From: Bacteroidales bacterium
Lineage (GTDB): Bacteria; Bacteroidota; Bacteroidia; Bacteroidales; JAAYUG01
Assembly (NCBI GenBank): GCA_012517825.1
Contig: JAAYUG010000075.1
Location: 1 to 32,097 of the forward strand
Direction of reading: 5' to 3'
Length of the DNA stretch: 32,097 bases
In this document: positions 8,636 to 31,025 of the stretch, one piece after another
Numbering within the stretch: the stretch's first letter is position 1
How the letters are laid out: every line of letters starts with the position of its first letter
The notes under the pieces: model-generated
Databases searched by the model: none
Told to the model about the DNA's origin: nothing
The model's input: only the letters and a program-made list of their open reading frames with translations
Made by a program: the position numbers and the translations under genes

Positions 8636-8753
8636 ACTTTTTGTTTTTATTAGTTTTACAATCGCTATTGTTTTTAAACAGAAACCACAATGCATTCCTT
8701 TGTGGGTACTTCTTCCGGATGGCGGAACACGTCATATATAGGCCGAAATTCCC

Positions 8754-8795
8754 AAAAAAGCCGAGCAGGTCCTTTCACGGATCCCTGATCCTGCT
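8754..8795 (-). terminator. Possible terminator downstream of the beta-helix gene
   Basis: On the minus strand AGCAGG (8795-8790) can pair with CCTGCT (8769-8764), followed by CGGCTTTTTT. Within the loop a smaller GGATC/GATCC hairpin (8779-8791) competes. The six-T tract sits after the stem as expected, but the stem is short and the loop long. It falls in the 254-base gap between the beta-helix gene and the ADP-ribosylglycohydrolase gene. If it works, it would lower expression of the last PUL gene or mark a separate transcript. Confidence 0.3.
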
Positions 8796-8889
8796 TCCGC
8801 CTGCTGAAATTAAGAACTCGGTATTTACCCGGACCATCCATGGCTTATAAGTTAACAAATCTATGTAAAAGAACCTGAATATGAATGAA

Positions 8890-12206: not shown

Positions 12207-12226
12207 TGTTTTACAGATTAATGATT

Positions 12227-12260
12227 AAAAAAAGGAGGAGTCAGTGGTATTGACTCCTCC
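12227..12260 (-). terminator. Rho-independent terminator between susD and the GH27 gene
   Basis: On the minus strand GGAGGAGTCA (12260-12251) and TGACTCCTCC (12243-12234) form a perfect ten-base stem with a seven-base loop, followed by seven T (12233-12227). It lies 53 bases after the SusD stop and 21 bases before the GH27 start. It should make the SusCD transcript much more abundant than the downstream enzyme genes. Confidence 0.9.
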
Positions 12261-12312
12261 AAATATACTTCACTATTTCACAACAAAAATGGTTGCCGGT
12301 GAGAACATAATC

Positions 12313-13848
12313 TCATGGCTTCAGCCACCAGGGAATCTGATTGATTCCGTCATATCCCCCGTACTGCTCATCAATGGCTTTTTTATAGTTTTCGGGGTTA
12401 GAGACTTGTTCGTCGGTGGGATATTTCCAGCGTTTCGGATAAACGGTTTTGTCATCGGGGTTCATGCTGGTGTTGGGATCCAGAGGAAATTCGGGATATC
12501 CCGTCCGCAGGAACTGAGCATAATTTAAACCGTTACCCTGGAAGAAGTCAATAAGCCACCTCTGGTACCAGATCTGGTGCAGACGATCTTCCTTGGTTCC
12601 TGATGTTGCATATGCTGCAGCACCGGTGAAATAATTATCGATATACGCCTGGTCGATAGCCATGCCATGGGTATAGGACGCAGGAGCAGAAGGCAGAGTT
12701 CTGTAAAAATCAAGCATAGCCCTTACTCCGTTTTCATAATAATCTTTTGCATTTCCTGTAACCCATCCTTCTTCAATAGCTTCAGCAATAATGAAGCATT
12801 GTTCGGCGTAAGTAAACTTGAACATCGGATCGCCGGCCCTGAAATCTCTGTACCGTTTATTGATCAGGGAATACATGCCATTCTGATTGTTAACCGAAAG
12901 TTGTTCGGCTATTAATTCCGTAGGTGCACCTACATAAGCATCAAAATCGCTTTCCAGTTTACCGGCACTTATCTGAGCCGGTGCAGGTTCTGCAAAGTAG
13001 AACAACCTGCGGTCCTGCAGTTGGATTAATCCGTCAACAACGAGTTTGGACAGGGCGATGTACTTTCTTCTGTCTTCACCATTCCAGAAAGGATGGGATG
13101 CGTTGGGATTATCGGAATAAGCCAGCTGGAAATTGTCAGCATTACCGGTCATCAGGTTGCCGGCTGCCACAATTTCAGCAAACCGGGCTTTCTGTGCCGC
13201 AGTTGCTTTTTTACTGATGGTCTGAATGACCTTCAGTTGCATGGCATTGCAAAGCCTGCGCCATTTGGCAGCATTGCCTCCCAGCATTATGTCACCTTTG
13301 AAGTCTGCACCATTGGCAAAATCTTCTTCAGCGGCTTTCAGATCATCCAGGATTTCCTGAAACACATCCTGTTGTTTGTCATATTTAGGCCTGACAATTC
13401 CTTCTTCTGCCTTACCGGCTTCAGAATAAGGAATATCGCCCAGGTCCAGAGTTATCCAATAACCGTACCAGGCTTTCATGAACAAATACAACCCTTTAAG
13501 TGAAGATTCATAAGGGGTTCCGGCAGCAAATTCAACTGCTCTCTTCAGATCGGTAAGATTCTTGAACGACCCGAAACCGCCGTAAGGCCAGTATGAGTAA
13601 TAGTATTGATACGGATTGGGGTTTGGTTCACAAATAGCGGTATGCTTGCACCACAGATTTCCTGTGCCAAAATCGGTAGGGTTTGGATTCCAGAACCTGA
13701 AAGAATTTTTCAATACCTGTGTAACAAGCATTTCAGGTGCCACCGATGTCGGTGCATCCGGATTTGTATTTAATTCCTCAAAATTACTGCAGGAAACAGT
13801 AATTGCAAGAGAAATTACAAATAGAAAGATATAATGGATCTTTTTCAT
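12313..13848 (-). CDS. susD: SusD/RagB-family surface glycan-binding lipoprotein
   Basis: A 511-residue lipoprotein with a signal peptide whose lipobox ends in VSC (Cys20), followed by SNFEELNTNPDAPTSV, the usual mature N-terminus of SusD-like proteins. The central region is rich in Trp, Tyr and helices, with KAWYGYWITLDLGDIPYSEA and WRRLCNAMQLKVIQ, typical of the TPR-containing SusD-like fold. The C-terminal part carries YQRWLIDFFQGNGLNYAQFLRTGYPEF and the WKYPTDEQ segment of the SusD_2-like subgroup. SusD binds oligosaccharide at the cell surface and forms the lid of the SusC transporter. It follows susC after 12 bases and ends 53 bases before a strong terminator. The glycan bound is not readable from sequence. 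Confidence 0.95.
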   Translation of the reverse strand: MKKIHYIFLFVISLAITVSCSNFEELNTNPDAPTSVAPEMLVTQVLKNSFRFWNPNPTDFGTGNLWCKHTAICEPNPNPYQYYYSYWPYGGFGSFKNLTDLKRAVEFAAGTPYESSLKGLYLFMKAWYGYWITLDLGDIPYSEAGKAEEGIVRPKYDKQQDVFQEILDDLKAAEEDFANGADFKGDIMLGGNAAKWRRLCNAMQLKVIQTISKKATAAQKARFAEIVAAGNLMTGNADNFQLAYSDNPNASHPFWNGEDRRKYIALSKLVVDGLIQLQDRRLFYFAEPAPAQISAGKLESDFDAYVGAPTELIAEQLSVNNQNGMYSLINKRYRDFRAGDPMFKFTYAEQCFIIAEAIEEGWVTGNAKDYYENGVRAMLDFYRTLPSAPASYTHGMAIDQAYIDNYFTGAAAYATSGTKEDRLHQIWYQRWLIDFFQGNGLNYAQFLRTGYPEFPLDPNTSMNPDDKTVYPKRWKYPTDEQVSNPENYKKAIDEQYGGYDGINQIPWWLKP

Positions 13849-13860
13849 GACTGAACAAAA

Positions 13861-16800
13861 TTAGAAGGTAAGTTTAACATTAAAGCCCACGTATCTGACG
13901 GAAGGATCCTGGAAATCGGAAGCACCGCCCGCGTTGGTTCCATAAAGGCTGTTTTCACCTCCGTCAGGGTCAGAGTAAACAAAGTCTTTTGCCCAGAGCA
14001 GAATATTCTGGCCAACAAAGCTGACCGAAGCAGATTTTGCCAGCTTGGGAATGTATTTGCCCGGAAGATCGTAGGTCAAAGATACTTCGCGTAATTTCAG
14101 GAAGGTCTTTGAGTAGGTATCAGGCCTGGTTCCGCGGCCACCCCATGCACTACTGTTGTGCAAATCAATGATATATTGTTTGTAGCTGGTATAAACATCA
14201 TTGGGAGCATATTGGCGGGTATCGCTCGTGATGTTACCAAACTGATCATAGGTTACTGAGCCGGAAACTACCTTAACACCCTTTCCGAGGAAGTTTCTTG
14301 AACCGGGAGTTGCAACATCCAGTTCTCTTTCCTTGGTAACAGATTTTGGATGAACACCTGCCTGCCACATATAGCTTTCTGTACGTTCGGTTATCAGACC
14401 ACCAACCACACCATCCATTGAAACGAATAATGTGAAATTTTTAAATTTCAAGGTTGAATTCAACCCCCAGATCCAGTCAGGATCATAGAATCCAAACCTT
14501 GAATCATACTGGCTTGTCATGAGCCTTCCGTTATTAAAGATATATTCTCCGGTTGCAGGAACCTTCACAAAATCTTTGCTCACAAAAGCATCGACGCGTT
14601 CACCAACCTTTACCCATGGTTTCTTGTCTGAATATACAGAATCCAGCTGTGTATAGTAGCGGGCGTAAGTTGTCCAGTTAATGCCCAGATCCCATTGTAC
14701 ATCCCTGCTTCTTACAGGAGTAGCGTTAACAGCCACTTCCCAGCCACGACGGGATATTTCCTCATCGATGTTCACATAAAAGCTGGTGTAGCCTGAAGCT
14801 GCGGAAAGGGGAGCGTTCTTCAGGAAGTTGAACATGTGTTTGTCATAGTAGGCAACATCAACTGAAAGTCGGTTTTTGAAAACAACTCCCTGCATACCAA
14901 CCTCAAATGTTGTAGAGGTTTCGGGGAGAACACTCGGGTCGTACAGAGAGGAAGGTGCGGTTGCTCCATTCAGCGTATTCCAGGTAGAACTATTCAGTGT
15001 ATAGGTGCTCTTGACAGCATAAATTGCCGGGGGTGTCTTTGACATGGTCCATGATCCCCTGAGCTTCAACAGATCGAGCCAGCTTTTTGTTCCGGGGAGA
15101 AGTTCCGACAGAATAAAACTGGAAGAAATCGACGGGTAGAAGTACGAACGTGTAGATTCCGGTAATGTTGAACTCCAGTCATTTCTGCCTGTTGCTTCAA
15201 CATAGATCAGTTTATTCCATGAAAGAGCCAACCGGCCGAACAATGAGTTCACCTGCTGGCGGTAGGTGCTCTGAGAAATTGTCGGAGGATTTACCGAGGC
15301 CTTGATGGAGAAAAATCCCGGAACAGAAATTCCGCCCACGGTCTGGGCATACATATTGTAATCCTGTGTATAATAAATTGTTCCACCGGCCAGGTATTCG
15401 ATACCGAACTTTCCAAAAGTTTTATCACCTGTTAACAGCAGGTCATTGTTCATACTCAGACCCTGTGTCTGGCCAATGTTATACCCGCCTGTCCATGCTC
15501 CGTTCCATGTCCACGGGTTTCCGGGAATAGGCGTGTTCCCTGTGGATGTATATGAACCCCAGGAAACTCTTTGCACGCCCCTGTCGGTATAAAAATCAAG
15601 ACCGGAACGGATACTGGCTTTCAGCCAGTCAGTAATCTGATAACTGCTTAGCACATCTGCATTGAAAATATCGCGCGATACTTCATTGGTTCTCTCATAT
15701 CTGTCGAAATAGGGATTGTTGGATTCGGACCGGTATGTCCAGTTTTGTGACTGTTTTGGTATGAGCCAGTAGTCCTTATAATCCCGAACGTCGAAATCAC
15801 TTGGAGTCCATATGAGAAGCGAGTACATGGGATCGTAGGATGTATACCCATTGGAACCCATGTTGGGTGAATACCTCCGTGCATAAGACAAATTGGAACT
15901 GATTTTGAATCTGCCAGTATTGACATCTCCGCTTAATTTGTAAGCATATTTATCCAGCATGGAATTAGGGTATATTCCTTTGTTTTCAGTCCAGTTTACT
16001 GAGCTTCTGAGAGAGATAACCTCACCTTTATACCCGACGCTGAAATTATTGTTGGTGACATACCCCTGTTCCAGAAAATTTTTGAAGTTGTCTTTCCCAA
16101 GGGGTAAATATTCATAGTCACGGTAATCTTTCAGTACAGGATCCCATTGATTCTGTATCGATCCGTCCATTTTGGTACCCCAGGAACTGGTAGAGTTCTT
16201 ATCGTACGTATTATTACTTCCGCGACCATAAACAGCTTGTTTTTCAGGTAGTGCCAGAAAGCCCGCCGTAAACATGGTGTTGGTAGTAAAATCGGCTGTT
16301 ATTCCTGACTGATTAGCACTTCCGTTTTTGGTGGTAATGAGGATAGCCCCGCTTGCTCCGCGATAGCCATAAAGTGCGGAAGCAGTAGCACCTTTCAGAA
16401 CACTGATTGATTCAATGTCTTCAGAAGCTATATCACTTAATTTTTTATTGTTATAAGGTACTCCGTCAATAACCAGAAGGGGATTTTCACCACGCAAAGT
16501 ATAGCTGGGAGCTACAGCAAAATCGGTAGTATTTTTAACCAGAAGCCCGGCCACCTTACCGGTCAGGGCTGTGGCAGCTTCAACTCCCATTACTTTCTGG
16601 AGGCTCTCTCCATCTACTTTCTGTACAGCATAACCCAGAGCCTTTTCTTCACGTTTGATACCCAGAGCCGAAACCACAACTTCTTCCAGATTGACGACTT
16701 CTTCACTCATCTGAACATCAATGGTATTGTCAGTACCGATATTTATCTGAACCGACTGCATACCAATAAATGAAAAAGTAAGGCTTTTGGCTCCCTGAGG

Positions 16801-17319
16801 GATTTCAATACTGTACTTTCCGTTAACATCGGTTATAGTGCCGATCGTCGTTCCGGTAACAACTACATTTACCCCCGGCAGAGGATTCCCGTCCTTATCC
16901 TTCACCGTACCGGTAATTGTACGCTGCTGAAAAGGCGATAAAATACCCGCCTGATCACCAGAGGCAAGAATTATCTGCTTGTCGTATACAGCAAACTTGA
17001 CTTCTCCTTTGAAAAGGTCATTGAGAATGTCCTTGATGCTTTTATTTTCTGCCTGAATATTGACCTTTTTGTCAACATCTATCAGCTTTGGGCTGTACAG
17101 AAAATAAAATTCACTTTGATTCTCAATTTCCTTTAGAGCATCAGAGATTTTAACATTTTCAAGTTTCAGAGTCAGTTTTGTGGCCTGCGAATAACTCTCA
17201 GTTGCGAAAATCTGAAATACTGCCACAAATGTCAGTAGAATGGTTAGCTTCATGATTCTGATGGTTTTTTTTAACAAGTATCCATTAGGAAACTTATTAT
17301 CATCTCGAAAATCTTTCAT
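13861..17319 (-). CDS. susC: SusC/RagA TonB-dependent transporter with N-terminal STN signalling domain
   Basis: A 1152-residue outer-membrane transporter. Order of domains: signal peptide (core KLTILLTFVAVFQIFA, cleavage near SYSQA at residue 45); STN secretin/TonB short N-terminal domain at about 50-105; carboxypeptidase-like regulatory domain from RTITGTVKDKDGNPLPGVNV; TonB-box-like EEVVVSALGIKREEKALGY; plug with LVIDGVPYNN and SVLKGATASALYGYRGASG; then a 22-strand-type barrel to the C-terminus VRYVGFNVKLTF. The STN domain is the part that reports substrate to a FecR anti-sigma factor, and fecR and a sigma gene lie directly upstream. It imports, with SusD, an oligosaccharide that is not identified here. 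In-frame starts further in (IMKLTI) are possible, but a long leader is common in this family. Confidence 0.96.
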   Translation of the reverse strand: MKDFRDDNKFPNGYLLKKTIRIMKLTILLTFVAVFQIFATESYSQATKLTLKLENVKISDALKEIENQSEFYFLYSPKLIDVDKKVNIQAENKSIKDILNDLFKGEVKFAVYDKQIILASGDQAGILSPFQQRTITGTVKDKDGNPLPGVNVVVTGTTIGTITDVNGKYSIEIPQGAKSLTFSFIGMQSVQINIGTDNTIDVQMSEEVVNLEEVVVSALGIKREEKALGYAVQKVDGESLQKVMGVEAATALTGKVAGLLVKNTTDFAVAPSYTLRGENPLLVIDGVPYNNKKLSDIASEDIESISVLKGATASALYGYRGASGAILITTKNGSANQSGITADFTTNTMFTAGFLALPEKQAVYGRGSNNTYDKNSTSSWGTKMDGSIQNQWDPVLKDYRDYEYLPLGKDNFKNFLEQGYVTNNNFSVGYKGEVISLRSSVNWTENKGIYPNSMLDKYAYKLSGDVNTGRFKISSNLSYARRYSPNMGSNGYTSYDPMYSLLIWTPSDFDVRDYKDYWLIPKQSQNWTYRSESNNPYFDRYERTNEVSRDIFNADVLSSYQITDWLKASIRSGLDFYTDRGVQRVSWGSYTSTGNTPIPGNPWTWNGAWTGGYNIGQTQGLSMNNDLLLTGDKTFGKFGIEYLAGGTIYYTQDYNMYAQTVGGISVPGFFSIKASVNPPTISQSTYRQQVNSLFGRLALSWNKLIYVEATGRNDWSSTLPESTRSYFYPSISSSFILSELLPGTKSWLDLLKLRGSWTMSKTPPAIYAVKSTYTLNSSTWNTLNGATAPSSLYDPSVLPETSTTFEVGMQGVVFKNRLSVDVAYYDKHMFNFLKNAPLSAASGYTSFYVNIDEEISRRGWEVAVNATPVRSRDVQWDLGINWTTYARYYTQLDSVYSDKKPWVKVGERVDAFVSKDFVKVPATGEYIFNNGRLMTSQYDSRFGFYDPDWIWGLNSTLKFKNFTLFVSMDGVVGGLITERTESYMWQAGVHPKSVTKERELDVATPGSRNFLGKGVKVVSGSVTYDQFGNITSDTRQYAPNDVYTSYKQYIIDLHNSSAWGGRGTRPDTYSKTFLKLREVSLTYDLPGKYIPKLAKSASVSFVGQNILLWAKDFVYSDPDGGENSLYGTNAGGASDFQDPSVRYVGFNVKLTF

Positions 17320-17377
17320 AATTTTGAATGGATTAAGGTTACTAATGTTTTTTTACAGGATTTGGTACTTAGTCCGG

Positions 17378-17403
17378 CGGGAATGTGTGCCAGCACGTTC
17401 CCG
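17378..17403 (-). promoter_or_regulatory. Hairpin in the fecR-susC spacer
   Basis: CGGGAATGTG at 17378-17387 pairs with CACGTTCCCG at 17394-17403 (one G-T pair), with a six-base loop, in the 159-base spacer ahead of susC. On the minus strand no T run follows, so it is not a terminator for fecR. It may be a structure in the susC leader or a protein-binding palindrome. On the plus strand a T-rich stretch follows it, but no plus-strand gene ends here. Confidence 0.4.
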
Positions 17404-17478
17404 TTTCTTTTTGTTTTCGCATCACTTGTTATGTTTTCATAGGCATTCGGTTTTTGGTTATAGTTAAGGATTTCATGT

Positions 17479-18561
17479 TTATTTATTCCGGTAATACAGA
17501 ACAACTTTTCTTTTCGAAAAAATTCCCTGACTTTTTTCCTGCCGGTTTGAAATGGTGTAGTTTACAGGAGAGATCAGAGACATGAGTTCCATTACCTGCT
17601 GAAGGTTTTCGTCAACAAAAGTAGCTGTGTATGTAAGTTCAAGAAGTTTCGGATCAGCAATTTCAATTTCAACATTAAACCATCTGCTCAGTTTTTTAGC
17701 CACCTCACCGAGTGGTTCATTATGAAAAACAAGCTTCCCGTCTTTCCAGGCAAAATACCTGTCATCATCTATGATGCGTTGGGTGATTTTCTTATCAGAC
17801 TTGTGATAAATGACCATATCAGCAGGTTTCATTTCCACAAGGGTTACCTTTCTCTTTCCAGGGTCCGAGCGCTGTAAAACCACCACTCCTTTAATCAGGG
17901 AAGTTTCGATTTTATCCTCTTCCGGATAGGCCATAACATTGAATTCGGTTCCAGTTGCCATTATCTGAATATCTCCGGCTGAAACCACAAATGGTACCCT
18001 GCGGTTGGAAACCACCTCAAAATAGGCTTCTCCGTGAAGTTCAACATCACGGCTTCTGCCCCTGAATACAGCAGGGTATTTCAGAGAACTGCCATGATTT
18101 AACCATACCCTTGAACCGTCGGGCAAAGTAACCTTTGAAATGGCATCCACCGATGAAAATACTTCATTATAAGCCTGATTGCCTGAAGCTATGCCATTCT
18201 GCCCGGTATAAAACTTAACCGACATCAACACACTGAATCCAAGGAGAGGAAGCATCAGCACGGCTGCAATCCGTGAAAAAACACGCCAAAAGGTTCCAGT
18301 ACCTGATGATAAAAACCCGAAAGGTTTTTCTTCCAATGTTTTTGTGTGGATCAGATTGACCTTGTGATGGATTCTGTCAAGAATACCTTCATAGTTTGCA
18401 GGCAATTCCTCTTCATCAGCCTGTATCTCTTCCCAGTAAGTATATAACAGATTTCTGCCTTCTGTGGTTTCAGCACCTGATGTAAACCATTCCAGAAGAG
18501 TTTGCAATTCTTCCTGTGTGCATCTGTTACTGAAATATTTTCGCAGAAGTTCGATGTTCAT
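17479..18561 (-). CDS. FecR-type anti-sigma factor
   Basis: A 360-residue inner-membrane regulator. The N-terminal cytoplasmic part (MNIELLRKYFSNRCTQEELQ onward) is the anti-sigma segment. One membrane span lies at about residues 92-118 (SRIAAVLMLPLLGFSVLMSV). The periplasmic FecR domain follows (VTLPDGSRVWLNHGSSLKYP, ELHGEAYFEV, TGTEFNVMAYPEE). The C-terminal DUF4974-like domain (LVFHNEPLGEVAKKLSRWFN, then VEIEIADPKL) is similar in fold to STN and would touch the SusC STN domain. It keeps the sigma factor at 18799-19386 inactive until SusC senses substrate. It is separated from the sigma gene by 237 bases with a strong hairpin, and from susC by 159 bases. Confidence 0.95.
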   Translation of the reverse strand: MNIELLRKYFSNRCTQEELQTLLEWFTSGAETTEGRNLLYTYWEEIQADEEELPANYEGILDRIHHKVNLIHTKTLEEKPFGFLSSGTGTFWRVFSRIAAVLMLPLLGFSVLMSVKFYTGQNGIASGNQAYNEVFSSVDAISKVTLPDGSRVWLNHGSSLKYPAVFRGRSRDVELHGEAYFEVVSNRRVPFVVSAGDIQIMATGTEFNVMAYPEEDKIETSLIKGVVVLQRSDPGKRKVTLVEMKPADMVIYHKSDKKITQRIIDDDRYFAWKDGKLVFHNEPLGEVAKKLSRWFNVEIEIADPKLLELTYTATFVDENLQQVMELMSLISPVNYTISNRQEKSQGIFSKRKVVLYYRNK

Positions 18562-18583
18562 TTATTTCTCCTTTCATTCTTAA

Positions 18584-18628
18584 GGGTAAACAAGCACCTC
18601 TGCAGCATGCCCGAGGTGCTTGTTACCC
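18584..18628 (-). promoter_or_regulatory. Long inverted repeat ahead of fecR
   Basis: GAGGTGCTTGTTACCC at 18613-18628 pairs with the complement at 18584-18600 with a single bulged base, a stem of about 16 base pairs around a 12-base loop. It ends 23 bases before the fecR start. On the minus strand it is followed by TTAAGAATGAAAGGAG and no T tract, so it is not a classical terminator. It could trap the fecR leader, stabilise an RNA end or bind a protein. Confidence 0.6.
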
Positions 18629-18650
18629 ATTCTGACTAATCAACCAACCA

Positions 18651-18674
18651 TACTAACTAACCGACTAACTAACC
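18651..18674. repeat. Short tandem repeat in the sigma-fecR spacer
   Basis: Two copies of a 12-base unit, TACTAACTAACC and GACTAACTAACC, lie side by side, each built on ACTAACTAACC. Looser versions (ACTAATCAACCAACC) continue to their left. The array sits next to the long inverted repeat ahead of fecR. Function unknown. Confidence 0.6.
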
Positions 18675-18798
18675 AGCCCTTTTGTTAAACCTTTTTCAGG
18701 AAATCTATCCTGTTTTGATAGTATGACGCAAAAACAAAAAAATACCACTACCGGGAATTAAAAAAAAGTAAAAAAAATTAAAACCTAGAAAATCAATG

Positions 18799-19386
18799 CT
18801 ATACAAAAAGAAACCAGAAAAGCAACCCCATTAAAGAATAGGAACCGAGTTTGTCGCGGATAGTCCTCAGTGCCCTTGCCATATGGTTTTCAATGGTATT
18901 AACAGAGAGATTCAGACGCTCAGCGATTTCAGCATATTTTAAACCTTCCACTTTGTGCATTAAATAAATCTCCTTCTGACGCTGAGGCAGGCCATTAATT
19001 ATTTCCTCGAGCCTCGTTTCCAGTTCCCTGTAATTCAATGCAACATCAACAGGTACATCACTTGGTTCCTGCAATGATTTCAGATACTTAAAGAATTCAT
19101 TATCCTTTGCCTTTTTCCTTAAAAAGGATATGGCCGAATTGTAAGTAACCGTAAACAGAAAGGATTTTACCGAAGCATTATTTTCCACATTGAATCTGTG
19201 CTCCCATAAGCTCAGAAACACTTCCTGCAGAAGATTTTCTGTTTCTTCCTTTGATTTAAGAAGGGAATAACCAAATTTATAGATGCGACCACAATATTTT
19301 TTGTATAGCAGGTCAAAGGCCAGCATATTGCCCGCCTTTATTTCCATCATAAGATCCTCATCCCTGCCAATGGATATTTCTTTCAT
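18799..19386 (-). CDS. ECF sigma-70 factor (FecI-like)
   Basis: A 195-residue extracytoplasmic-function sigma factor of the Bacteroidota PUL type. Region 2 is at about residues 20-92 (FDLLYKKYCGRIYKFGYSLL, EETENLLQEVFLSLWEHR, SVKSFLFTVTYNSAISFLRK). Region 4 is at about 125-178 (GLPQRQKEIYLMHKVEGLKY, AEIAERLNLSVNTIENHMAR), which reads the -35-like element. The protein ends in an unusually hydrophobic tail, SLMGLLFWFLFV. It is held by the FecR protein encoded just downstream and should switch on the susC operon when SusC is loaded. It is divergent from gyrB across a 643-base gap. Confidence 0.94.
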   Translation of the reverse strand: MKEISIGRDEDLMMEIKAGNMLAFDLLYKKYCGRIYKFGYSLLKSKEETENLLQEVFLSLWEHRFNVENNASVKSFLFTVTYNSAISFLRKKAKDNEFFKYLKSLQEPSDVPVDVALNYRELETRLEEIINGLPQRQKEIYLMHKVEGLKYAEIAERLNLSVNTIENHMARALRTIRDKLGSYSLMGLLFWFLFV

Positions 19387-22765: not shown

Positions 22766-24064
22766 ATGAAATTACGCAGGATTCCTCAGTTGTTTCAGGT
22801 AGAATATTTCCGGCATACTGTTACACTGGTTTCTTCTGCAGCTGTGGCCCAGTTAATCGGCCTGCTTGTTTACCCCCTTCTTACGCGACTTTTTACTCCG
22901 GCCCATTTCGGAGAGCTGTCGGTTTACCTTTCGGTGTCAATGATTCTTTCCATCCTGGCCAGCGGGAGATACGAACAGGCCATTTTGCTCCCCCGGCGCA
23001 ACGAACATGCTCTGCAGCTTCTGCAACTGGCCCTCTTTGTGTCGGTTATTACCATGGCCATCCTCTTTATCTTTCTGCTTTTTACACGAAACTGGGTTTC
23101 TTCTGTGCTGGGAGTTCCGGAAATTTCCTTCTGGTTATTGACACTGCCGCTGTATGTTTTCATCATGGTTGCCTGCCAGGCATTTACTTTTTATTTCAAC
23201 AGGCACAAGCAGTATAACGCCATTGCCGCCTATAATGTAACCCAGAGCGCCGCATCATCGGCCATGCGCGTTGGATTCGGCTTTCTGAAAACCGGGGGCG
23301 GCGGACTAATCCTTGGCTCCCTTCTCGGATATGCCGGAGGACTGGTGGCCTTTCTTTTCCCTTTTCTCAAAAAACACAGAAACAGCAAAATCTTGTTTAA
23401 AAGCGCACCGGTAAAGAAAAGAGCAAAGGAGTACATTAACTTTCCGCGCTTCCGGATGGTGCATCTGTTTCTGAACTACTTTTCCGGAAACCTGCCTGTG
23501 CTTTTGCTTTCATCCTGGTTTTCCTCTTCGGCAGCCGGAATTTATTCCCTCGGGTACACAGTGGTGTCGCGTCCGGCCAATCTTTTTCTCAATTCGGTGG
23601 AACGGACATTTTCGCAGCGCATTATAGAAAAAAAGAACAACGGACAAGCTCTGCTATTTGATTTCCGGCGTTTTGTTCGAAGCATGTTTCTGCTGGCACT
23701 TGTTACTTTTATTCCCGTCTGGCTTGCCGCTCCTTTTGTTTTTACCCTGGTTTTCGGCAGTGCATGGGCTGAATCAGCCACCTACTTCCGCATTATCCTT
23801 CCGTGGATGTTTATGTTCTTCCTGGCTACTCCGTTGTCGTTTCTGCCTGACTTTTTTATGCAGCAAAAAAAAGCCATGTGGATTGAAGCTGTGCAACTTG
23901 TTTTGCGGATGGCTGCCCTAACGGCCGGATTATTGCTGAAAAACCCGCATCTCGGTATGGTTTTTTACAGCGCCATTGGAGTGGGCATTTACGGATATTG
24001 CCTCTGGTGGTACTATACCCTTGTGAAACAACACGACAATCAGTTGCAGATTAGTATTACGTAA
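22766..24064 (+). CDS. Polysaccharide flippase (Wzx/MATE-like O-antigen translocase family)
   Basis: A 432-residue polytopic membrane protein with about twelve hydrophobic segments and the family opening SSAAVAQLIGLLVYPLLTRL followed by FTPAHFGELSVYLS. The middle has PRFRMVHLFLNYFSGNLPVLLL and SSSAAGIYSLGYTVVSRPA, as in oligosaccharide flippases of the RfbX/Wzx type. These proteins move undecaprenyl-linked glycan units across the inner membrane. It follows ftsE by 16 bases. Its end overlaps by eight bases the end of the minus-strand glycan-modification operon, which it faces. That placement fits a role in the same surface glycan, but this is inference. No glycosyltransferases are in the window. 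Confidence 0.88.
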   Translation: MKLRRIPQLFQVEYFRHTVTLVSSAAVAQLIGLLVYPLLTRLFTPAHFGELSVYLSVSMILSILASGRYEQAILLPRRNEHALQLLQLALFVSVITMAILFIFLLFTRNWVSSVLGVPEISFWLLTLPLYVFIMVACQAFTFYFNRHKQYNAIAAYNVTQSAASSAMRVGFGFLKTGGGGLILGSLLGYAGGLVAFLFPFLKKHRNSKILFKSAPVKKRAKEYINFPRFRMVHLFLNYFSGNLPVLLLSSWFSSSAAGIYSLGYTVVSRPANLFLNSVERTFSQRIIEKKNNGQALLFDFRRFVRSMFLLALVTFIPVWLAAPFVFTLVFGSAWAESATYFRIILPWMFMFFLATPLSFLPDFFMQQKKAMWIEAVQLVLRMAALTAGLLLKNPHLGMVFYSAIGVGIYGYCLWWYYTLVKQHDNQLQISIT

Positions 24065-25160
24065 AAACCGAATCCCCGTCTCCATCCTGCAGTTCGAAGC
24101 TGGTATCAAGAACCTCTGATAATACCAGATTGTAAGCGGTTCGCTTATACACTTTCCTTTTGATCACAGCCGGCAGATTCAACCGTTTCAGTTCTCTGAG
24201 CAGGTATTGATTCCAGGTCAGCAACCCGTGGGCCGGTTGGCGGAGCAACCAAAACAGTAACGCCTGAGCAACGGGTTCTTCACTTCCCTGAAGAACATAG
24301 AGGTAAGGCACTTTTGCTATGCCGTCACGGAAATTCACAACAGCCACTCCAACAAGCAACTGGTTGTGATCAATCCTAAGAACATGCTGAACAAAGGATT
24401 CAACTTTCCAGGAGAAAGGATACTGGTGAGTACCTTTTTTACATAATTTGCACGGAATAAGCCAGGGAGTGCGCAAAATCCATTTCAGATCAGATGCGCG
24501 CCTTGTGAGGGGGTTTCCGGCACACATCCTGTCGATAAATTCGTTTACATCCTGCTGTTCAACGGAAGCCGGACGAACCGTAAAAGTGTCTGATCCGGCA
24601 GCTATTTGCATACCCTGAAGGCGGAGGTACTGCATTCCGTTTATAGCAAGGTCCACCGGAGAAGCAAGAAGTTTAACCCATGGCCTGTATCCTGATTTCC
24701 GGCTCAGAAAGGTACCGGCACCTCCCCTGAACCACAGATATATGCCTTCGGCAGGTTTCTGAACCCTGAACCTGCCTGTACCATCAACGATCTTCTCTGT
24801 ATGCTCTGTCATATCGGCCAGCACCATGCGCCCGCGGGTTATTTCGAGCATTCGGTAGAAAAGGGGCATAGATACTCTTCGTCCCTTATCGGGGTGAATC
24901 CACCAGCAGCTGTTGTAGAAAAAGCGTTCCGGCTCAGCACGAGCGAGATAGAGCCGTGCCGGCAAAATTCCAGCAAAACCAGCCAGGGAATCGTCCTCTG
25001 CAACCGCCATCAGAAGAGCAATATCATTCGGGTAAGCATTCGGATTGATGGCCTGGGAAATAGCCCTTGAAGGGGTAATGGGAATAATTTTCTGCCGGCG
25101 GTACCAACCGGATGCGATCAGATCATCGAGTTCGCCAACTCGTATTTCACGGAACTTCAT
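24057..25160 (-). CDS. GNAT-like acyltransferase, last gene of the seven-gene operon
   Basis: A 367-residue soluble protein that I recognise only at the fold level. The N-terminal half has a GNAT-like pattern: ALLMAVAEDDSLAGFAGILP as the central strands, then CWWIHPDKGRRVSMPLFYRM in place of the acyl-CoA phosphate-binding loop and helix. The second half (ILRIDHNQLLVGVAVVNFRD, then PYLYVLQGSEEPVAQALLFW) may be another degenerate GNAT unit, as in FemAB-like two-domain enzymes. Its start overlaps the acyl carrier protein stop by four bases (ATGA), so it is a good candidate for the enzyme that takes the acyl group from that carrier. Its 3' end overlaps the flippase gene by eight bases. Substrate unknown. 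Confidence 0.6.
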   Translation of the reverse strand: MKFREIRVGELDDLIASGWYRRQKIIPITPSRAISQAINPNAYPNDIALLMAVAEDDSLAGFAGILPARLYLARAEPERFFYNSCWWIHPDKGRRVSMPLFYRMLEITRGRMVLADMTEHTEKIVDGTGRFRVQKPAEGIYLWFRGGAGTFLSRKSGYRPWVKLLASPVDLAINGMQYLRLQGMQIAAGSDTFTVRPASVEQQDVNEFIDRMCAGNPLTRRASDLKWILRTPWLIPCKLCKKGTHQYPFSWKVESFVQHVLRIDHNQLLVGVAVVNFRDGIAKVPYLYVLQGSEEPVAQALLFWLLRQPAHGLLTWNQYLLRELKRLNLPAVIKRKVYKRTAYNLVLSEVLDTSFELQDGDGDSVFT

Positions 25161-25405
25161 ACCGAGGACTTCTGTACAATAATCCTGATTATGTCGCCCA
25201 CGGTTTCTATCTCAACAAGTTCAGAAAATTCGAAGCGCAGGGCGAATTCTTTTTCCAGCGCAGCAATCAGCCGCACATGCTGCAGTGAGGTCCATTCCGG
25301 CACATCGGCAGCCGAAAGTCCGGGAGTAAGAACTAATGATGGTTTGCGGAATACTTCCCTGAACACTTTTTCTACACGCTGTCGAATCACATCGTAATCA
25401 TCCAT
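25157..25405 (-). CDS. Acyl carrier protein
   Basis: An 82-residue acidic carrier protein. The phosphopantetheine attachment site is Ser40 in PEWTSLQHVRLI. The usual DSL is TSL here, with Thr in place of Asp, while the Trp-x-Ser-Leu-x-His pattern is that of free-standing carriers in biosynthetic clusters. Helix 3 and the end (ELVEIETVGDIIRIIV) match the carrier fold. It should hold the group activated by the adenylation enzyme encoded at 26281-27774 and hand it to one of the GNAT-like enzymes. It overlaps the next gene by four bases and follows the GNAT gene after a 99-base gap. A fatty-acid-synthesis AcpP is unlikely because of the site variant and the neighbours. Confidence 0.88.
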   Translation of the reverse strand: MDDYDVIRQRVEKVFREVFRKPSLVLTPGLSAADVPEWTSLQHVRLIAALEKEFALRFEFSELVEIETVGDIIRIIVQKSSV

Positions 25406-25504
25406 ACACCTTATTTCTTTTCTGAGACAAACAATTACGCAGGATGTAAATTTAGTTTTTTTACTGATAATTCAGTTGGTGATGCCGCTCCAACGGGCTG
25501 ATAA

Positions 25505-26284
25505 TTATCTTCCCCATTTCAATATCCAGAGCCGGGAGACCGGTTGAAAACCCAGTTTCAGATACACCGGCTCACCCATTTTGCTGGCATGAAGAATAAA
25601 ACGGTTACAGCCTTCATCCAGAGCCTTTTTTATGACCCATGCTGTGGCAGTTTGAGCAATTCCCATTCTTCTGAACTCCGGTTTTACCGTAACCAGATAA
25701 ATTCCGCACAAATTGCCAATGCGGTGCAGAGCAATACTCCCGGCCAGACGGTCCTCAAATACAACACGGTAAAACCACAACCCTGCGCTTTCGGAGGTCA
25801 CAACAAGCCCGGGAGAAATGCGTTTCGCGGCAAAAAGCACTTCATTCACAACACCAGCAAATTCTTCAGCCTGAACAGTATTACAGGTTTCCTCCAGGCG
25901 GACCTTTTCATTCACCGGCAAAAAGTTTACCATTTCTTCCGTGCACCACATTCCTTTCCAGGAAAGCACAGGAACAAAACCGGCATGAGCCAGAAGGTTC
26001 AGCAAATCGCTTGAGCGATGGTCAGAAACAACCAGCGAATCGGGGAATATACCTTTTTCAGCCGACAGTTTCAGCTCAGCTATATCCTTCACCTGCGGAG
26101 CGTAAGGGAAACGTATGCTGAATATAAAGGAGGGCCATCCGGTATCAGGATTGTGCACCCAATAGAAGCAGGGTTCCTCACCCCATGGCAGGTTTCCGTA
26201 TTTTGCCAGTGAAAGATAGAATTGTTCCAGCCCGTATTCAACAAGGCCGGCAGGGGCCATATTGTACAGGCTTTCTCCTTTCAT
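25505..26284 (-). CDS. GNAT-family N-acetyltransferase
   Basis: A 259-residue protein with a C-terminal GNAT domain at about residues 165-255. Core marks are GSIALHRIGNLCGIYLVTVK, the acyl-CoA pyrophosphate loop EFRRMGIAQTATAWVIKKAL (RxxGxA), then FILHASKMGEPVYLKLGFQP, where the Tyr is the usual general acid position. The N-terminal 150 residues form a second, more degenerate domain with WVHNPDTGWPSFIFSIRFP and WKGMWCTEEMV. It moves an acetyl or other acyl group from CoA or a carrier protein to an amine. Its ATG overlaps the stop of the adenylation gene by four bases, so the two are translationally coupled. The acceptor is probably a sugar amine made by the operon's deacetylases, which is inference. 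Confidence 0.82.
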   Translation of the reverse strand: MKGESLYNMAPAGLVEYGLEQFYLSLAKYGNLPWGEEPCFYWVHNPDTGWPSFIFSIRFPYAPQVKDIAELKLSAEKGIFPDSLVVSDHRSSDLLNLLAHAGFVPVLSWKGMWCTEEMVNFLPVNEKVRLEETCNTVQAEEFAGVVNEVLFAAKRISPGLVVTSESAGLWFYRVVFEDRLAGSIALHRIGNLCGIYLVTVKPEFRRMGIAQTATAWVIKKALDEGCNRFILHASKMGEPVYLKLGFQPVSRLWILKWGR

Positions 26285-27774
26285 ATCATTTCATACAGCT
26301 TTCTCCGGTCGATTTTTCCGCTTACGCTGACCGGAAACTGTTCAACCGGGATAATTTCTGATGGCACCATGTAATCGGGCAATTTCCGGCTCAGAAATTC
26401 CCTGAGGGCGACCGGATCGTCGCATTTTTCAACAAACAGATGTATCTGCTGGGTTCCCAGGTAATTTTCCTTGGCCAGAGCCACAGCCTGGGTTCGCAAA
26501 TACGTTCGTGTATGGTATTCAATTTCACCCAGTTCAACCCGGAATCCCTGCACCTGCACCTGCCCGTCGGAACGCCCGCAAAAAAGATAATCACCATCCC
26601 TGTCAGTCAGAACAATGTCGCCGGTAGCATACCATCGTTCCTTTTTTTTGCCCGAAGAAAGTTCAAAAAAGACCTGGGTGGTTTTTTCATCATCTTTCCA
26701 GTATCCGGGGCTTATCTGGGGACCTCCTACGCACAATTCCCCCTTCTGTTCCAGGTCCAGGGCATTTCTGTTCTTCCCCGCTACAAAAGCCCGGTTTTTT
26801 CCAAAGGGTTTCCCGATTGCGACAATACCGTTAAAATGCTTTATTTCCCCGGGATCAGAAGGAATTTTGTATTCAAGACAATTGACAGTGGCTTCGGTAG
26901 GGCCGTACACATTCTGCACCACGGCATTCGGAACACATTGCCTCCATTCGGTTACAAGATCCCTGTCAAGAGGTTCACCTCCGAAAAGGCAGTAACGCAG
27001 TTTTTCAAGACGAATCGAAGGGAAATAAGGACGCAGAAAAGCAATGGTTGAGGGAGGCAACTTGGCAAAAGTCAGCCCGTGATTCTGAAGCAGGCGGAGG
27101 GCATACATATATTTTACCTCATTCCACGGTACCGTATAAACCGATGCCCCAAGGGAAAGCGGAACAATATAGCAATGCAACGATGCATCGAATGTAAGGT
27201 CGTAAATCTGAAGGAATTTGTCGTTTTCGGTAAACGAATAACCAATATCCAGAAAAGCTTTAACAAAAGCATTGAAATTGGAATAGGTAATCTGCACCCC
27301 CTTTGGCTTTCCTGTACTTCCTGATGTAAACAGAATGTACATCAGGTCATCAGGATCTCTTTCTGCTGGCTCAATATGGATTCCTTTTGATTTCAATCCC
27401 TTTACATCAATCATTTGAATGTGGGTCGCAGACAAAATGGTACGTGGCACAGGACCAGCCGACAAAACAAGCTCAGCGCCGGTTTGCCGTAAAATTTCGT
27501 TATTCCTGGTGGCAGGATTTCTCGGACTCAGAGGCAGAAAGGTTTTTCCTTCAAGCCAGATGGCATAAGCAGAAGCATAGCTGTAAATATCATCCCATGC
27601 AAGCACCGCCACGATTTTCTGTCGGCTTTTGCCTGCTTCTTTTTTCAAAACAGACCGGACTGCGGAAATGCAGGAGGCAAAATCCTCATAGGAATACAGA
27701 TCTTTCCCGATGCAGAAAGCATCTTTTTGAGGCCAGCGCCGGACTGATTCACTGAACTTCTGAAGAAAATCCAT
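26281..27774 (-). CDS. Stand-alone adenylation enzyme (NRPS A-domain/DltA-like)
   Basis: A 497-residue AMP-forming ligase with all core motifs: A3 LFTSGSTGKPKGV at 148-160, A4 FDASLH with D196, A5 NVYGPTEATV at 288-297, A7 YATGD at 382-386, A8 QGFRVELGEIEYH at 409-421, and A10 SGKIDRRKL with catalytic K487. D196 stands at the position (D235 of GrsA) that binds the alpha-amino group of amino-acid substrates, so an amino acid is more likely than a fatty acid. There is no fused carrier or condensation domain. The carrier is the separate protein at 25157-25405, an arrangement like DltA/DltC. The gene overlaps the GNAT gene by four bases and follows the NodB gene after three. Substrate not predictable by eye. 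Confidence 0.9.
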   Translation of the reverse strand: MDFLQKFSESVRRWPQKDAFCIGKDLYSYEDFASCISAVRSVLKKEAGKSRQKIVAVLAWDDIYSYASAYAIWLEGKTFLPLSPRNPATRNNEILRQTGAELVLSAGPVPRTILSATHIQMIDVKGLKSKGIHIEPAERDPDDLMYILFTSGSTGKPKGVQITYSNFNAFVKAFLDIGYSFTENDKFLQIYDLTFDASLHCYIVPLSLGASVYTVPWNEVKYMYALRLLQNHGLTFAKLPPSTIAFLRPYFPSIRLEKLRYCLFGGEPLDRDLVTEWRQCVPNAVVQNVYGPTEATVNCLEYKIPSDPGEIKHFNGIVAIGKPFGKNRAFVAGKNRNALDLEQKGELCVGGPQISPGYWKDDEKTTQVFFELSSGKKKERWYATGDIVLTDRDGDYLFCGRSDGQVQVQGFRVELGEIEYHTRTYLRTQAVALAKENYLGTQQIHLFVEKCDDPVALREFLSRKLPDYMVPSEIIPVEQFPVSVSGKIDRRKLYEMI

Positions 27775-27777
27775 GGG

Positions 27778-28818
27778 TCAGTATTTATCAGCCCTCCTGA
27801 GAATATTTTTTCCCATCAGGGCTTTGAACAAAAAGTAAAGGTACTCAGAAAAAATGATTCCGGGGGCGTTAACGAAAGGCTTCTCCATTCCAATCCGCTG
27901 GGCAGACCGGGGAGCCATATCTTTTTTAATACCTGAAGTACCAAATGTCACCGGCGGAGCGCTGGGCACTGAATGAAGGTTTTGGTAGAACTCCAGAGGA
28001 AGGAAATGATCGGTAAACGGAAAAGCAAAAACCGGGAACAGTTCTCCATACATATTTCTCACAAAATCAACACTTTCCAGGGTTTGCCGCAGCTGTTCAC
28101 CGGGAGCCAGGTCAGGATACCAGGGATGGTCAATGCTATGGGCTCCGATATGAAATCCTTCTGCCTGCAACCACCGGATCTGCTCATCATCCATATAGGG
28201 TTTCTGCTCCCGAAGATACTCTTCAAAACTGATACCCGCCACAAGGCCGAGATGATCGAGCATTTCCCTGTGCCGGTAAGGAATTTCCAGAACAGCTTTC
28301 CTGAAATCGGGAACAGGAAGCCCTTTTTTCATGAATGCCCGGGTGATGCCCGACGGAATGCATTCGGGCAAATTGGGCCTGAGAAGCTGATGATAAACCA
28401 GCGATGCCTTACAGCGGTATGATAGATCACGATTACCGACAAAAGCAGGCGATATAAAAAAGGTGGCCGGAACACCCAGATCTTTTAATATCGGGGCAAT
28501 AAAATCAAAAGACTCCCGGAACCCGTCGTCAATGGTAACATGCATTACAGGCTTCTCAGGGGAAGCCTCCCTGGTTATATAGCGAATTGCTCCGGAAAGA
28601 TCAACAGGCTTAAAATACCGTAAAAGCCATTCCACATCCCGGCGGAATTGTTCGGGCGACGGAACAGGATACAAGTGCCTGATGTGCGGGGGTGGCACAG
28701 GTGCTACGGCATGCCAGAAGGGAAAGAGCATTTTCTGCCGGCTGATTTTCACCAGCAGGGAAAAAGGGATTAGTCTCCTTAAGGGACTTGTAAATACGTA
28801 TAGTTTACTTTTGTCCAT
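27778..28818 (-). CDS. NodB-type polysaccharide deacetylase
   Basis: A 346-residue carbohydrate esterase 4-like protein. The metal-binding motifs are visible: VTIDDGF with D97 and D98 (TFDDG motif 1), and GAHSIDHP with H227 and H231 (motif 2). The later AFPFTDHFLP segment matches motif 3 (RxPxG/xFPYG-like). The usual reaction is removal of an N-acetyl or O-acetyl group from a hexosamine polymer or lipid-linked sugar. No clear signal peptide is seen; the N-terminus is basic and mildly hydrophobic (LRRLIPFSLLVKI), so a cytoplasmic or membrane-associated site is likely. It overlaps the FemAB-like gene by 14 bases. A freed amine would be the acceptor for the operon's acyltransferases. Confidence 0.88.
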   Translation of the reverse strand: MDKSKLYVFTSPLRRLIPFSLLVKISRQKMLFPFWHAVAPVPPPHIRHLYPVPSPEQFRRDVEWLLRYFKPVDLSGAIRYITREASPEKPVMHVTIDDGFRESFDFIAPILKDLGVPATFFISPAFVGNRDLSYRCKASLVYHQLLRPNLPECIPSGITRAFMKKGLPVPDFRKAVLEIPYRHREMLDHLGLVAGISFEEYLREQKPYMDDEQIRWLQAEGFHIGAHSIDHPWYPDLAPGEQLRQTLESVDFVRNMYGELFPVFAFPFTDHFLPLEFYQNLHSVPSAPPVTFGTSGIKKDMAPRSAQRIGMEKPFVNAPGIIFSEYLYFLFKALMGKNILRRADKY

Positions 28819-29707
28819 ACGTTAACCATCCGAAAAGACAACGGCTGACAAGGGGATAAACGGTGGTGGCCGCACCAAATCCTTTAAAAAATCTTGCAAT
28901 ACCTGGTACGGTGGAGCCTTCAAAATCGAGAAGCCGGCCCGTGCCGGCATAGGTTTCAATAAATCTGCTTACCAGCAGAAACATGGCGCCTGTTTCCTTA
29001 CCCTCCGGGGAAGAGGCCGAAATCAGATAAACGGAACGAAGATCATCCTTAAGGAAAAAGCAGCCGGCTAAAGGTTCATTGTCCGGAGCAAAGGCATACC
29101 ATATTTCCCCCTCGTTTCGTTCCAAAGCCTTATGCATGATTTTCCCGGCCAGTTGAAGGTGCTTTTCCTGCATACCTGACGGCCTGGCTTTCCACTTCAG
29201 CTGAAGCAGAAAACCGGGCTCACCGCTTTTTCTGATTTCCAGTCCCGCCTTCATTGCTTTCCTGATATTGCGATGGGTATTCTCGTCAAAGCCCGAAGAT
29301 AATTCACTGTATGGTTTATCGAGGGAAAGCAGGTTATCGGGCCGGAAGTACAATCCTTTCGTTCTTTCCAAAAGCTGGTTCGAAGCATTCAGGGCTATGT
29401 GCAACTGTATAACCCGGAGCGAGCCATGGCTTAAAAATTCATCACAGACGAATGAATCAGGAATTTGCTGACCGAAGATTCCCAGCTGCTGGCAATAAGG
29501 AGGTTGCAGAATACGTCTTACTCCAATCGTGTGTTTTTCAGGAACCGGCATAAAGTAACCCCGCGCTTCGTCGAGCAAAATTCCCCAGCCCGGGCAGACC
29601 AGATCAAGGTACCAGGCGCGAGCATAAGGAACCCTGTTGGGCGCCATGGCAAGCTGCTGATCCCACCATGCCCCGCCGATAAATTCATGTGCCAGATGCC
29701 TGATCAT
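28805..29707 (-). CDS. FemAB/GNAT-like acyl- or aminoacyltransferase
   Basis: A 300-residue protein of the broad FemAB-like GNAT group. The C-terminal block LLDFEGSTVPGIARFFKGFG near residues 258-277 is the hallmark of this Bacteroidota family and corresponds to the FEGS/PG loop of FemAB-like folds. GFDENTHRNIRKAMKAGLEI near 140 is the segment that in FemAB proteins links the two GNAT halves. EIWYAFAPDNEPLAGCFFL is a core strand pair. FemAB enzymes form amide bonds with tRNA- or carrier-bound aminoacyl groups. It overlaps both its neighbours (23 bases upstream, 14 downstream). Together with the adenylation enzyme and carrier it suggests aminoacyl transfer to a glycan or lipid. Exact acceptor unknown. 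Confidence 0.72.
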   Translation of the reverse strand: MIRHLAHEFIGGAWWDQQLAMAPNRVPYARAWYLDLVCPGWGILLDEARGYFMPVPEKHTIGVRRILQPPYCQQLGIFGQQIPDSFVCDEFLSHGSLRVIQLHIALNASNQLLERTKGLYFRPDNLLSLDKPYSELSSGFDENTHRNIRKAMKAGLEIRKSGEPGFLLQLKWKARPSGMQEKHLQLAGKIMHKALERNEGEIWYAFAPDNEPLAGCFFLKDDLRSVYLISASSPEGKETGAMFLLVSRFIETYAGTGRLLDFEGSTVPGIARFFKGFGAATTVYPLVSRCLFGWLTYGQK

Positions 29708-31025
29708 TGGATGGGTTTATTGCCAAAGCTAGTATTTTCTGATAGAAATCCCTCCATTCTTTCCCCGGACCAGCAAACGTTTCGTTATGAAAAATGAAAA
29801 TCAGAGTCCCCTTTACACGTTGAACTGACTGTATAATATTTCCTGCAATTTCTGCGGCCTTTTCCGTCACCTTACCGTCAGGACCGTAAAATGTTCTGTC
29901 CATAAAGGCAAACGGATACAGCATCAGGCCTGTGGTTTCCTCCCTGAGCAGGTCATAGAAAAGGAAAGGAGTGGTGATGCCGGCCCTGAAACCAGGGTGG
30001 GTTGAATATCCGAGAGAATAGTCTTCGCGGATCCCAATCCGGATAAGGTTACGGAAGGTTTCAGGAAACCGCATCCGCAGGAAATGCTGTCGGCTCATAG
30101 TAACGGACTGCCTGAGAACCGACTCGGCCAGTTCTTTTTCCCGCCTCATCTTCTGTTCGCTTCCAAAGGAATGGTATGAAGGATGGATACCCACTGAACC
30201 ATTGGCGGCACAGTCCTGTAAAATCTTTTGCATGGCAGGATGGACAGGCGATATGTTTTTGTCATACCTGCCGTACCTGCCCAAAAGGAAAAACCAGCGG
30301 GCAGAAATCCTGAAACGGCTGTGAATCTGATGAATCCATTCGAAGGTATAAAAAGGATCTTCCTTTTTCCCCGTCAGGCAGGCAATTCGCTCAGACAATC
30401 CGGGTTTTCGGTTAAGAAAAACATCCCGAACGGCTCCACCCAGATTCCGGAAAAAGCCCTTGTGGCAATAGGCAAAGGCACTGTCCACATCAATGGTAGG
30501 AATACACTGATATGGCGGTTCGTTAAAGGAAAAATCAGGAAAAACCGATGCAAGTTTTGATGCCAGCCAGAGTGCCCATTCATTGACCAAAGGCCTGCCA
30601 AGCCATCCCTGCCGGTAAAGCATGGACTCAGTAGCCGGAAACCTCCCGTGCTGATCGGGATGAAAAGCCAAATACTCCTCGTACCGGGTAACCAAATAAA
30701 ATGCTGCTGAAAAAACATCAAAACAACCATCAGCATCCTTGGCAGGAAACAGAACAGGCATTCCTTCAACCACATCCGCAACGGGCAAAAAATTCCGAAG
30801 CCCTGTTTCAGACAGCAATCCTGAAGGGATAATATGAAAAGCCTGTGCAAATTTTTCCTTTCCATAGCTGATCTTTGGCCCTTCGTAACGCGCGAATTCT
30901 TCCCTGTCGGCGGTTATGCCGGATGGAATGCGCAGGACCGTTTCCAGGAGAAGGCGCACCGCGTATTTCAGACGGGGAGTAACTGCGTCAGCATAGATCA
31001 ATACCGGCCTGTTTTCCATCTTCAA
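29685..31025 (-). CDS. Polysaccharide deacetylase-like protein (large Bacteroidota type)
   Basis: A 446-residue protein, first gene of the operon. The N-terminal 150 residues (LIYADAVTPRLKYAVRLLLE, then DVFSAAFYLVTRYEEYL) form a domain found before deacetylase domains in Bacteroidota. The C-terminal part has a deacetylase-like barrel: PTIDVDSAF with D179 and D181 in the place of motif 1, GIHPSYHS with H281 and H285 in the place of motif 2, and LIFIFHNETFAG near the end. Motif 1 is DxD rather than the canonical DDG, so the reaction may differ. There is no signal peptide. It overlaps the FemAB-like gene by 23 bases. An alternative start is ATG at 31019. It may deacetylate the sugar or have become a glycan-binding partner. 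Confidence 0.75.
   Translation of the reverse strand: MKMENRPVLIYADAVTPRLKYAVRLLLETVLRIPSGITADREEFARYEGPKISYGKEKFAQAFHIIPSGLLSETGLRNFLPVADVVEGMPVLFPAKDADGCFDVFSAAFYLVTRYEEYLAFHPDQHGRFPATESMLYRQGWLGRPLVNEWALWLASKLASVFPDFSFNEPPYQCIPTIDVDSAFAYCHKGFFRNLGGAVRDVFLNRKPGLSERIACLTGKKEDPFYTFEWIHQIHSRFRISARWFFLLGRYGRYDKNISPVHPAMQKILQDCAANGSVGIHPSYHSFGSEQKMRREKELAESVLRQSVTMSRQHFLRMRFPETFRNLIRIGIREDYSLGYSTHPGFRAGITTPFLFYDLLREETTGLMLYPFAFMDRTFYGPDGKVTEKAAEIAGNIIQSVQRVKGTLIFIFHNETFAGPGKEWRDFYQKILALAINPSNDQASGT

Follow-up and report, generated by a model that had tools for sequence, protein, structure and literature searches.

A seven-gene operon in a 32,097-nucleotide (nt) stretch of Bacteroidales DNA, here called the window, is best read as an extension, fed by a carrier protein, of the Wbp/Vim pathway for linking sugars in Bacteroidota that bear a type IX secretion system (T9SS), an explanation to which we give somewhat better than an even chance. 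In Porphyromonas, VimE and VimA make an aminoacylated linking sugar by which the T9SS sortase PorU tethers cargo proteins to lipopolysaccharide (LPS); the product of the P. gingivalis Wbp/Vim pathway, to which PorU joins cargo, is 2-N-seryl-3-N-acetylglucuronamide (PMC7468200). The genes are lettered in the order of their transcription, from A (29685-31025) to G (24057-25160), with all positions referring to the whole stretch. Genes A and B, homologs of vimE and vimA, very probably belong to the linking-sugar pathway, and the operon adds to them a deacetylase (C), a transferase (G) and an adenylation-GNAT-carrier module (D-E-F). The window is one contig (C75) of a 3.3-Mb draft genome (G000) of the order Bacteroidales that is 95% complete.

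The VimE and VimA homologs and their genomic setting

The product of gene A matches DUF7033 (PF23019, 8e-33) and the NCBIfam model of VimE (NF053580, 4e-46), the latter with 157 bits and below the cut-off of 440. It is 28% identical over 416 amino acids to the VimE of a recA-vimA-vimE locus, carries five residues (D179, D181, H281, H314 and H413) that are invariant among 23 homologs, and is encoded by the sole DUF7033/VimE-like gene of the genome. B matches the FemAB/Acetyltransf_6 models of Pfam and NCBIfam weakly and FemX structures by profile comparison (1e-3), and is 27% identical to VimA over 291 amino acids (6e-21), with a DFEGS..PG..RFF stretch common to both. The homology to VimE and VimA spans almost the whole of A and B. 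FemX and FemAB are aminoacyl-tRNA-dependent transferases that B resembles in profile, but the acceptor of FemX is the peptidoglycan stem peptide, whereas that of B is presumably a sugar amine. The VimA homolog adjoins the VimE homolog in the window.

This pairing recurs well beyond the window. Three genomes with proteins above the VimE cut-off have the order recA-vimA-vimE-glycosyltransferase, in agreement with the location reported for vimF, next to vimE and vimA (PMC13086638), and a B homolog lies directly next to a VimE-like gene in 10 of 17 further loci of the class, often near upp and sometimes near a UDP-GlcNAc 2-epimerase gene. Across Bacteroidia, VimE-like genes were found in 345 of 395 genomes and T9SS cargo tails in 391; all four genomes without tails are also without a VimE-like gene, a statistically weak association because three of the four come from one order. 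A variant arrangement was seen in G166 (L157, 6190-6825), where an open reading frame resembling a PIG-L-type deacetylase by sequence lies between vimA and vimE.

Other components of the pathway are encoded elsewhere in the same genome. Contig C89 carries wbpE-wbpD-wbpB-wbpA in one cluster (L266, 5807-9893): the WbpB candidate scores 378 bits against the solved WbpB, the WbpE candidate matches the solved WbpE, the WbpD candidate is a WlbB-type acetyltransferase matching the LPS acetyltransferase 3mqg, and wbpA is identified by its match to a UDP-GlcNAc 6-dehydrogenase (TviB-like). PorU (1277 bits, cut-off 420) and PorV (493 bits, cut-off 250) both pass their thresholds, and 41 T9SS cargo tails (C-terminal domains) are present. 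The likeness to the Wbp/Vim pathway of P. gingivalis and Tannerella forsythia (PMC7468200, PMC13086638) hence comprises adjacent VimE-like and VimA-like genes, wbpA/B/D/E, PorU, PorV, many cargo tails, and the logic by which an amino acid takes the place of an N-acetyl group on a 2,3-diamino uronic acid. The differences are the five added genes, the VimE score under the family cut-off, the lack of vimF alongside and the presence of a Wzx flippase gene as neighbour.

The sequence-only reading had likened the operon to PEP-CTERM/exosortase gene sets, and the resemblance is real: PEP-CTERM/exosortase-A loci contain the same enzyme kinds (ligase_PEP_1, FemAB, deacetylase and carrier), VimA itself matches the PEP-CTERM FemAB family (Veith et al. 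2020; PMC7468200), and a Nitrospira locus combines an XrtA-type amidotransferase with a carrier, an AMP ligase and NodB. That the operon is itself a PEP-CTERM/exosortase polysaccharide system in Bacteroidota is nevertheless highly improbable. The absence of an exosortase, first remarked in the window, extends to the whole genome (PF09721, no match at 95% completeness), in which a full T9SS is present and sorting is by PorU, and D scores far below the cut-off of TIGR03098 (172 of 592 bits). We rejected the exosortase system on the missing exosortase and the TIGR03098 score.

The five added genes

Gene C encodes a NodB-family polysaccharide deacetylase (PF01522, 1e-14) in which D97, D98, H227 and H231 are invariant in all 15 homologs, and F a phosphopantetheine carrier (PF00550, 3e-5) whose Ser40 is invariant in 32 of 32. 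The D protein matches PF00501 (5e-58) and TIGR01733 (6e-87); scanning the named genomes with D returned mostly unrelated non-ribosomal peptide synthetase (NRPS) adenylation domains.

The binding pocket of D bears on its substrate. D retains the Asp with which DltA binds the amine of its substrate (PMC4176424), but has Ala, His and Gly in place of the Leu, Met and Cys that form the D-Ala methyl pocket of DltA (PMC8972799), and an extra Lys at the 278-equivalent position. Its pocket reads DAHKLGVVN in the window, versus DLMLLCVIF as the commonest pocket of dlt-like homologs, and six genomes from five families share the identical signature DAHKLGV(V/I)N. One starred clade of the adenylation tree unites six D proteins, that of the window among them; five are from the operon and the sixth lies at a contig end. 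Two further operon D proteins were unplaced in the tree. Because the amine-binding Asp is kept while the rest of the pocket is both different and conserved, D probably activates an alpha-amino acid other than D-Ala. K278 and G301 of D resemble Asn/Asp-type NRPS codes.

A Bacteroidota relative of the dlt system, in which D and F would act as DltA and DltC in the D-alanylation of a glycan, would share with the operon a free-standing adenylation enzyme and a carrier, and D falls within the DltA-like enzymes, many of which are encoded in operons with a carrier and an MBOAT-type gene. We consider such a relative very unlikely, since neither MBOAT (DltB) nor DltD occurs among the seven genes or their neighbours, the D-Ala pocket is replaced (PMC4176424, PMC8972799), and ester alanylation has no need of two deacetylases, which suit the formation of an amide; the dlt assignment was rejected on the pocket and on the missing MBOAT and DltD. 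Many Bacteroidia, although Gram-negative, carry dlt-like operons, in which a carrier and MBOAT- and DltD-sized genes come after a DltA-like enzyme (L051, L054, L061, L071 and other loci); Pfam confirmed the MBOAT only in L292.

The pairing of a free-standing adenylation enzyme with a carrier would also suit a small non-ribosomal pathway whose product is a diffusible metabolite. Here, however, there is no condensation, thioesterase or exporter gene, and two polysaccharide deacetylases and a VimA homolog stand in an operon that is conserved with glycan genes; we rejected a natural-product pathway, which has hardly any likelihood, for these reasons. A defence system was likewise rejected, with no PADLOC match for A, B, E or G.

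Two of the added proteins are acyltransferases of GNAT type or resemblance. E matches PF00583 (2e-9), and motif alignment shows the coenzyme A (CoA) loop retained in nearly all E copies. Its fusion to D in G461 and its place after D in the D-E-MBOAT operon of L292 indicate that E most likely works with D and F, and not on the sugar. G itself has no Pfam match, and members of its family match GNAT models weakly. Deep hhalign profiles align G with E at the GNAT motif (89% over 44 columns), thin profiles of G against B and against E gave no match, and the single-sequence structure prediction of G has a pLDDT of 32. The loop of G in the window is KGRRVS, where CoA-type homologs have RGxGxA. None of the nine G proteins accompanied by D-E-F has the GNAT CoA loop [RQ]xxGx[GA], which was found by script in 12 of the 16 G proteins without D-E-F, or 13 when L126, with its loop outside the script's search window, is included. 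Loss of the loop in company with D-E-F would be expected if the donor were a carrier thioester, and is consistent with, but not proof of, a switch of the G donor from acyl-CoA to such a thioester.

Gene order across Bacteroidales

The search for the seven-gene order that the sequence-only reading had proposed returned the exact order A-B-C-D-E-F-G in a genome of another Bacteroidales family (G725) and the six-gene order B to G in two more genomes (G009 and G608), in all three of which ftsE adjoins G. Parts of the set recur in eight families. Further near-complete sets are B-C-(D-E fused)-F-G in G461; C, G-F-E-D and B in G557; C through G in G334; D to G with B in G435; D to G at a contig end in G002; and C-D-E in G054 and G638. 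The operon of G002 has a homolog of the window's flippase as a neighbour, and that of G557 a Wzx-type flippase.

A G homolog was found in 20 of 395 Bacteroidia genomes. Its neighbour is C, and D-E-F is missing, in most of the loci read. C and G therefore form a module of their own, and D-E-F is a second module set between them. In L112, L113 and L116, a vimA-type B homolog lies in or beside a C and G block of this kind, near upp. A break in gene order between the deacetylases and the adenylation and carrier genes had been named as the observation that would count against a single operon logic, and the outcome is mixed. The break does occur, in that A-B and the C and G pair each often stand without D-E-F, giving three modules; on the other side, D-E adjoins C, G or both in ten other genomes, and two families preserve the full order. 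In a separate observation, a G-B pair in a genome of the same order (L125, 4086-9485) has an XrtA/WbpS-like amidotransferase and an apparent glycosyltransferase as neighbours.

Comparison within one genus (f77/g82) supports the recruitment of carriers to the vim locus. G074 has the order epimerase-A-B-upp, and at the same locus G155 has epimerase-A-(toroid protein)-D-F-GNAT-AAC(3)-B-upp. The D protein of G155 falls in another branch of the adenylation tree, so that its acquisition looks like a separate recruitment. L085 and L088 show a second kind of adenylation set linked to VimE, one that includes an alpha/alpha-toroid protein and an acyltransferase of the AAC(3) family.

The main rival explanation is a second glycan decorated by co-transcribed genes: A and B would make the T9SS linking sugar, and the five genes C to G would put an amino acid on another sugar, of an O-antigen or capsule. 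The C and G pair and D-E-F lie without A nearby in most genomes, a Wzx flippase gene is the next gene in the window and a flippase gene a neighbour in G002 and G557, and E is also found in dlt-like operons such as that of L292. We regard this rival as possible but doubtful, in view of the complete gene order retained in two families, the adjacency of C and G to a vimA-type gene in three loci, and the different adenylation-carrier block that G155 has independently acquired between vimE and vimA. On the same three grounds, the best single reading has C, G and D-E-F acting on the linking sugar or its neighbour.

Several findings weigh against the extension of the linking-sugar pathway as we propose it. 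A misses the VimE equivalog cut-off (157 of 440 bits) and is hence a homolog, not a certified VimE; in most relatives no A stands next to the operon, and C and G often lie apart from A-B. The CoA loop was lost in one or two events, not nine, eight of the nine loop-less G proteins belonging to one clade. D-E-F is patchy, an E-type gene being present in 17 of 344 genomes of the order and not always in this operon; against near-universal VimE-like and T9SS genes, this makes D-E-F accessory.

Operon layout, surroundings and proposed route

All seven open reading frames lie on the minus strand within 24057-31025 at the coordinates first reported, and the close packing described by the sequence-only reading proved exact at all six spacings: overlaps of 23 nt for A/B, 14 for B/C and 4 each for D/E and F/G, and gaps of 3 for C/D and 99 for E/F. 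Its gene kinds (deacetylase-like, FemAB-like, NodB, adenylation, GNAT, carrier and GNAT-like) agree with the Pfam and NCBIfam matches and with homologs, A being refined to a VimE homolog. The listed start of A is TTG, with an in-frame ATG 6 bases further in.

Table 1. Genes of the operon and the convergent neighbour in the window
Feature	Position	Strand	Assignment
Gene A	29685..31025	-	VimE-like deacetylase (DUF7033 + NodB-like)
Gene B	28805..29707	-	VimA/FemAB-like aminoacyltransferase
Gene C	27778..28818	-	Second NodB-type N-deacetylase
Gene D	26281..27774	-	Amino-acid adenylation enzyme (DltA/NRPS A-domain type)
Gene E	25505..26284	-	GNAT N-acyltransferase, CoA loop intact (RRMGIA)
Gene F	25157..25405	-	Phosphopantetheinyl carrier protein
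Gene G	24057..25160	-	GNAT-like transferase without canonical CoA-binding loop
Wzx/MOP-type flippase	22766..24064	+	PF13440, 6e-22; convergent neighbour, outside the operon

In the window, ftsE lies one gene beyond G, past the flippase. Further away, a polysaccharide utilization locus occupies 7022-19386 on the minus strand (SusC, SusD, FecR, an extracytoplasmic function sigma factor, a GH27 alpha-galactosidase and an ADP-ribosylglycohydrolase), and 2194-6968 on the plus strand encodes a TPR protein together with one of about 560 residues that has no Pfam match. A pair resembling these two, as judged from sizes and N-terminal sequence only, stands beside ftsE in G009 (L016) and G608 (L290); in the window the pair is parted from ftsE by the utilization locus and gyrB.

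Hydropathy shows neither a signal peptide nor a membrane helix in any of the seven operon proteins (maximum 19-residue value 1.38). All seven are therefore probably cytoplasmic, and their chemistry would take place on a sugar nucleotide or lipid-linked sugar before the glycan reaches the surface, which leaves the surface glycan first suggested as their substrate without support. The chemical logic first outlined, in which an amine is freed, an acid activated, a carrier loaded and an amide formed, is supported as the content of one operon.

For the carrier-fed extension of the Wbp/Vim pathway, we infer the action of C, G and D-E-F on the linking sugar itself, together with the amino acid used, the role of E and the order of steps. 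WbpA, WbpB, WbpE and WbpD would make UDP-2,3-diacetamido-glucuronic acid, from which the VimE-like A would take off one N-acetyl group, and B would add an amino acid to the freed amine, presumably from an aminoacyl-tRNA as in FemX. A second N-acetyl group, on this sugar or on the adjacent one in the linker, would be taken off by C. D would adenylate an amino acid other than D-Ala and load it onto the carrier F, E would probably use CoA to N-acylate or otherwise modify the carrier-bound amino acid, and G would move the group from the carrier to the amine freed by C, forming an amide. The finished sugar would be built into LPS, and PorU would join the C-terminus of T9SS cargo to it. The apparent loading of an amino acid onto a carrier, with handover to a sugar, has not been described for the Wbp/Vim pathway, and no linking sugar dependent on a carrier or on adenylation turned up in literature searches. 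The suggestion that the operon encodes a glycan decoration not yet described accordingly fails for A and B, homologs of VimE and VimA of a published pathway, and stands for the other five genes.

The question that this operon addresses is how linking sugars are made in T9SS bacteria beyond Porphyromonas and Tannerella. A 2025 study of Prevotella intermedia described an alanyl-sugar without known biosynthesis and proposed the existence of several pathways (PMC11969387). The operon offers a concrete candidate for a second route, in which an amino acid activated by an adenylation enzyme would be delivered to the sugar by a carrier; it provides a hypothesis of function for the C and G pair and for the unnamed family of G, and ties the resemblance to PEP-CTERM loci to a biochemical logic common to sortase-type systems. 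More tentatively, we propose that the T9SS linking sugars here bear a second, carrier-delivered amino acid and that G is a GNAT in which an aminoacyl-carrier thioester replaces CoA. If so, G would be a new kind of amide-forming sugar aminoacyltransferase, diversifying the anchor used by PorU.

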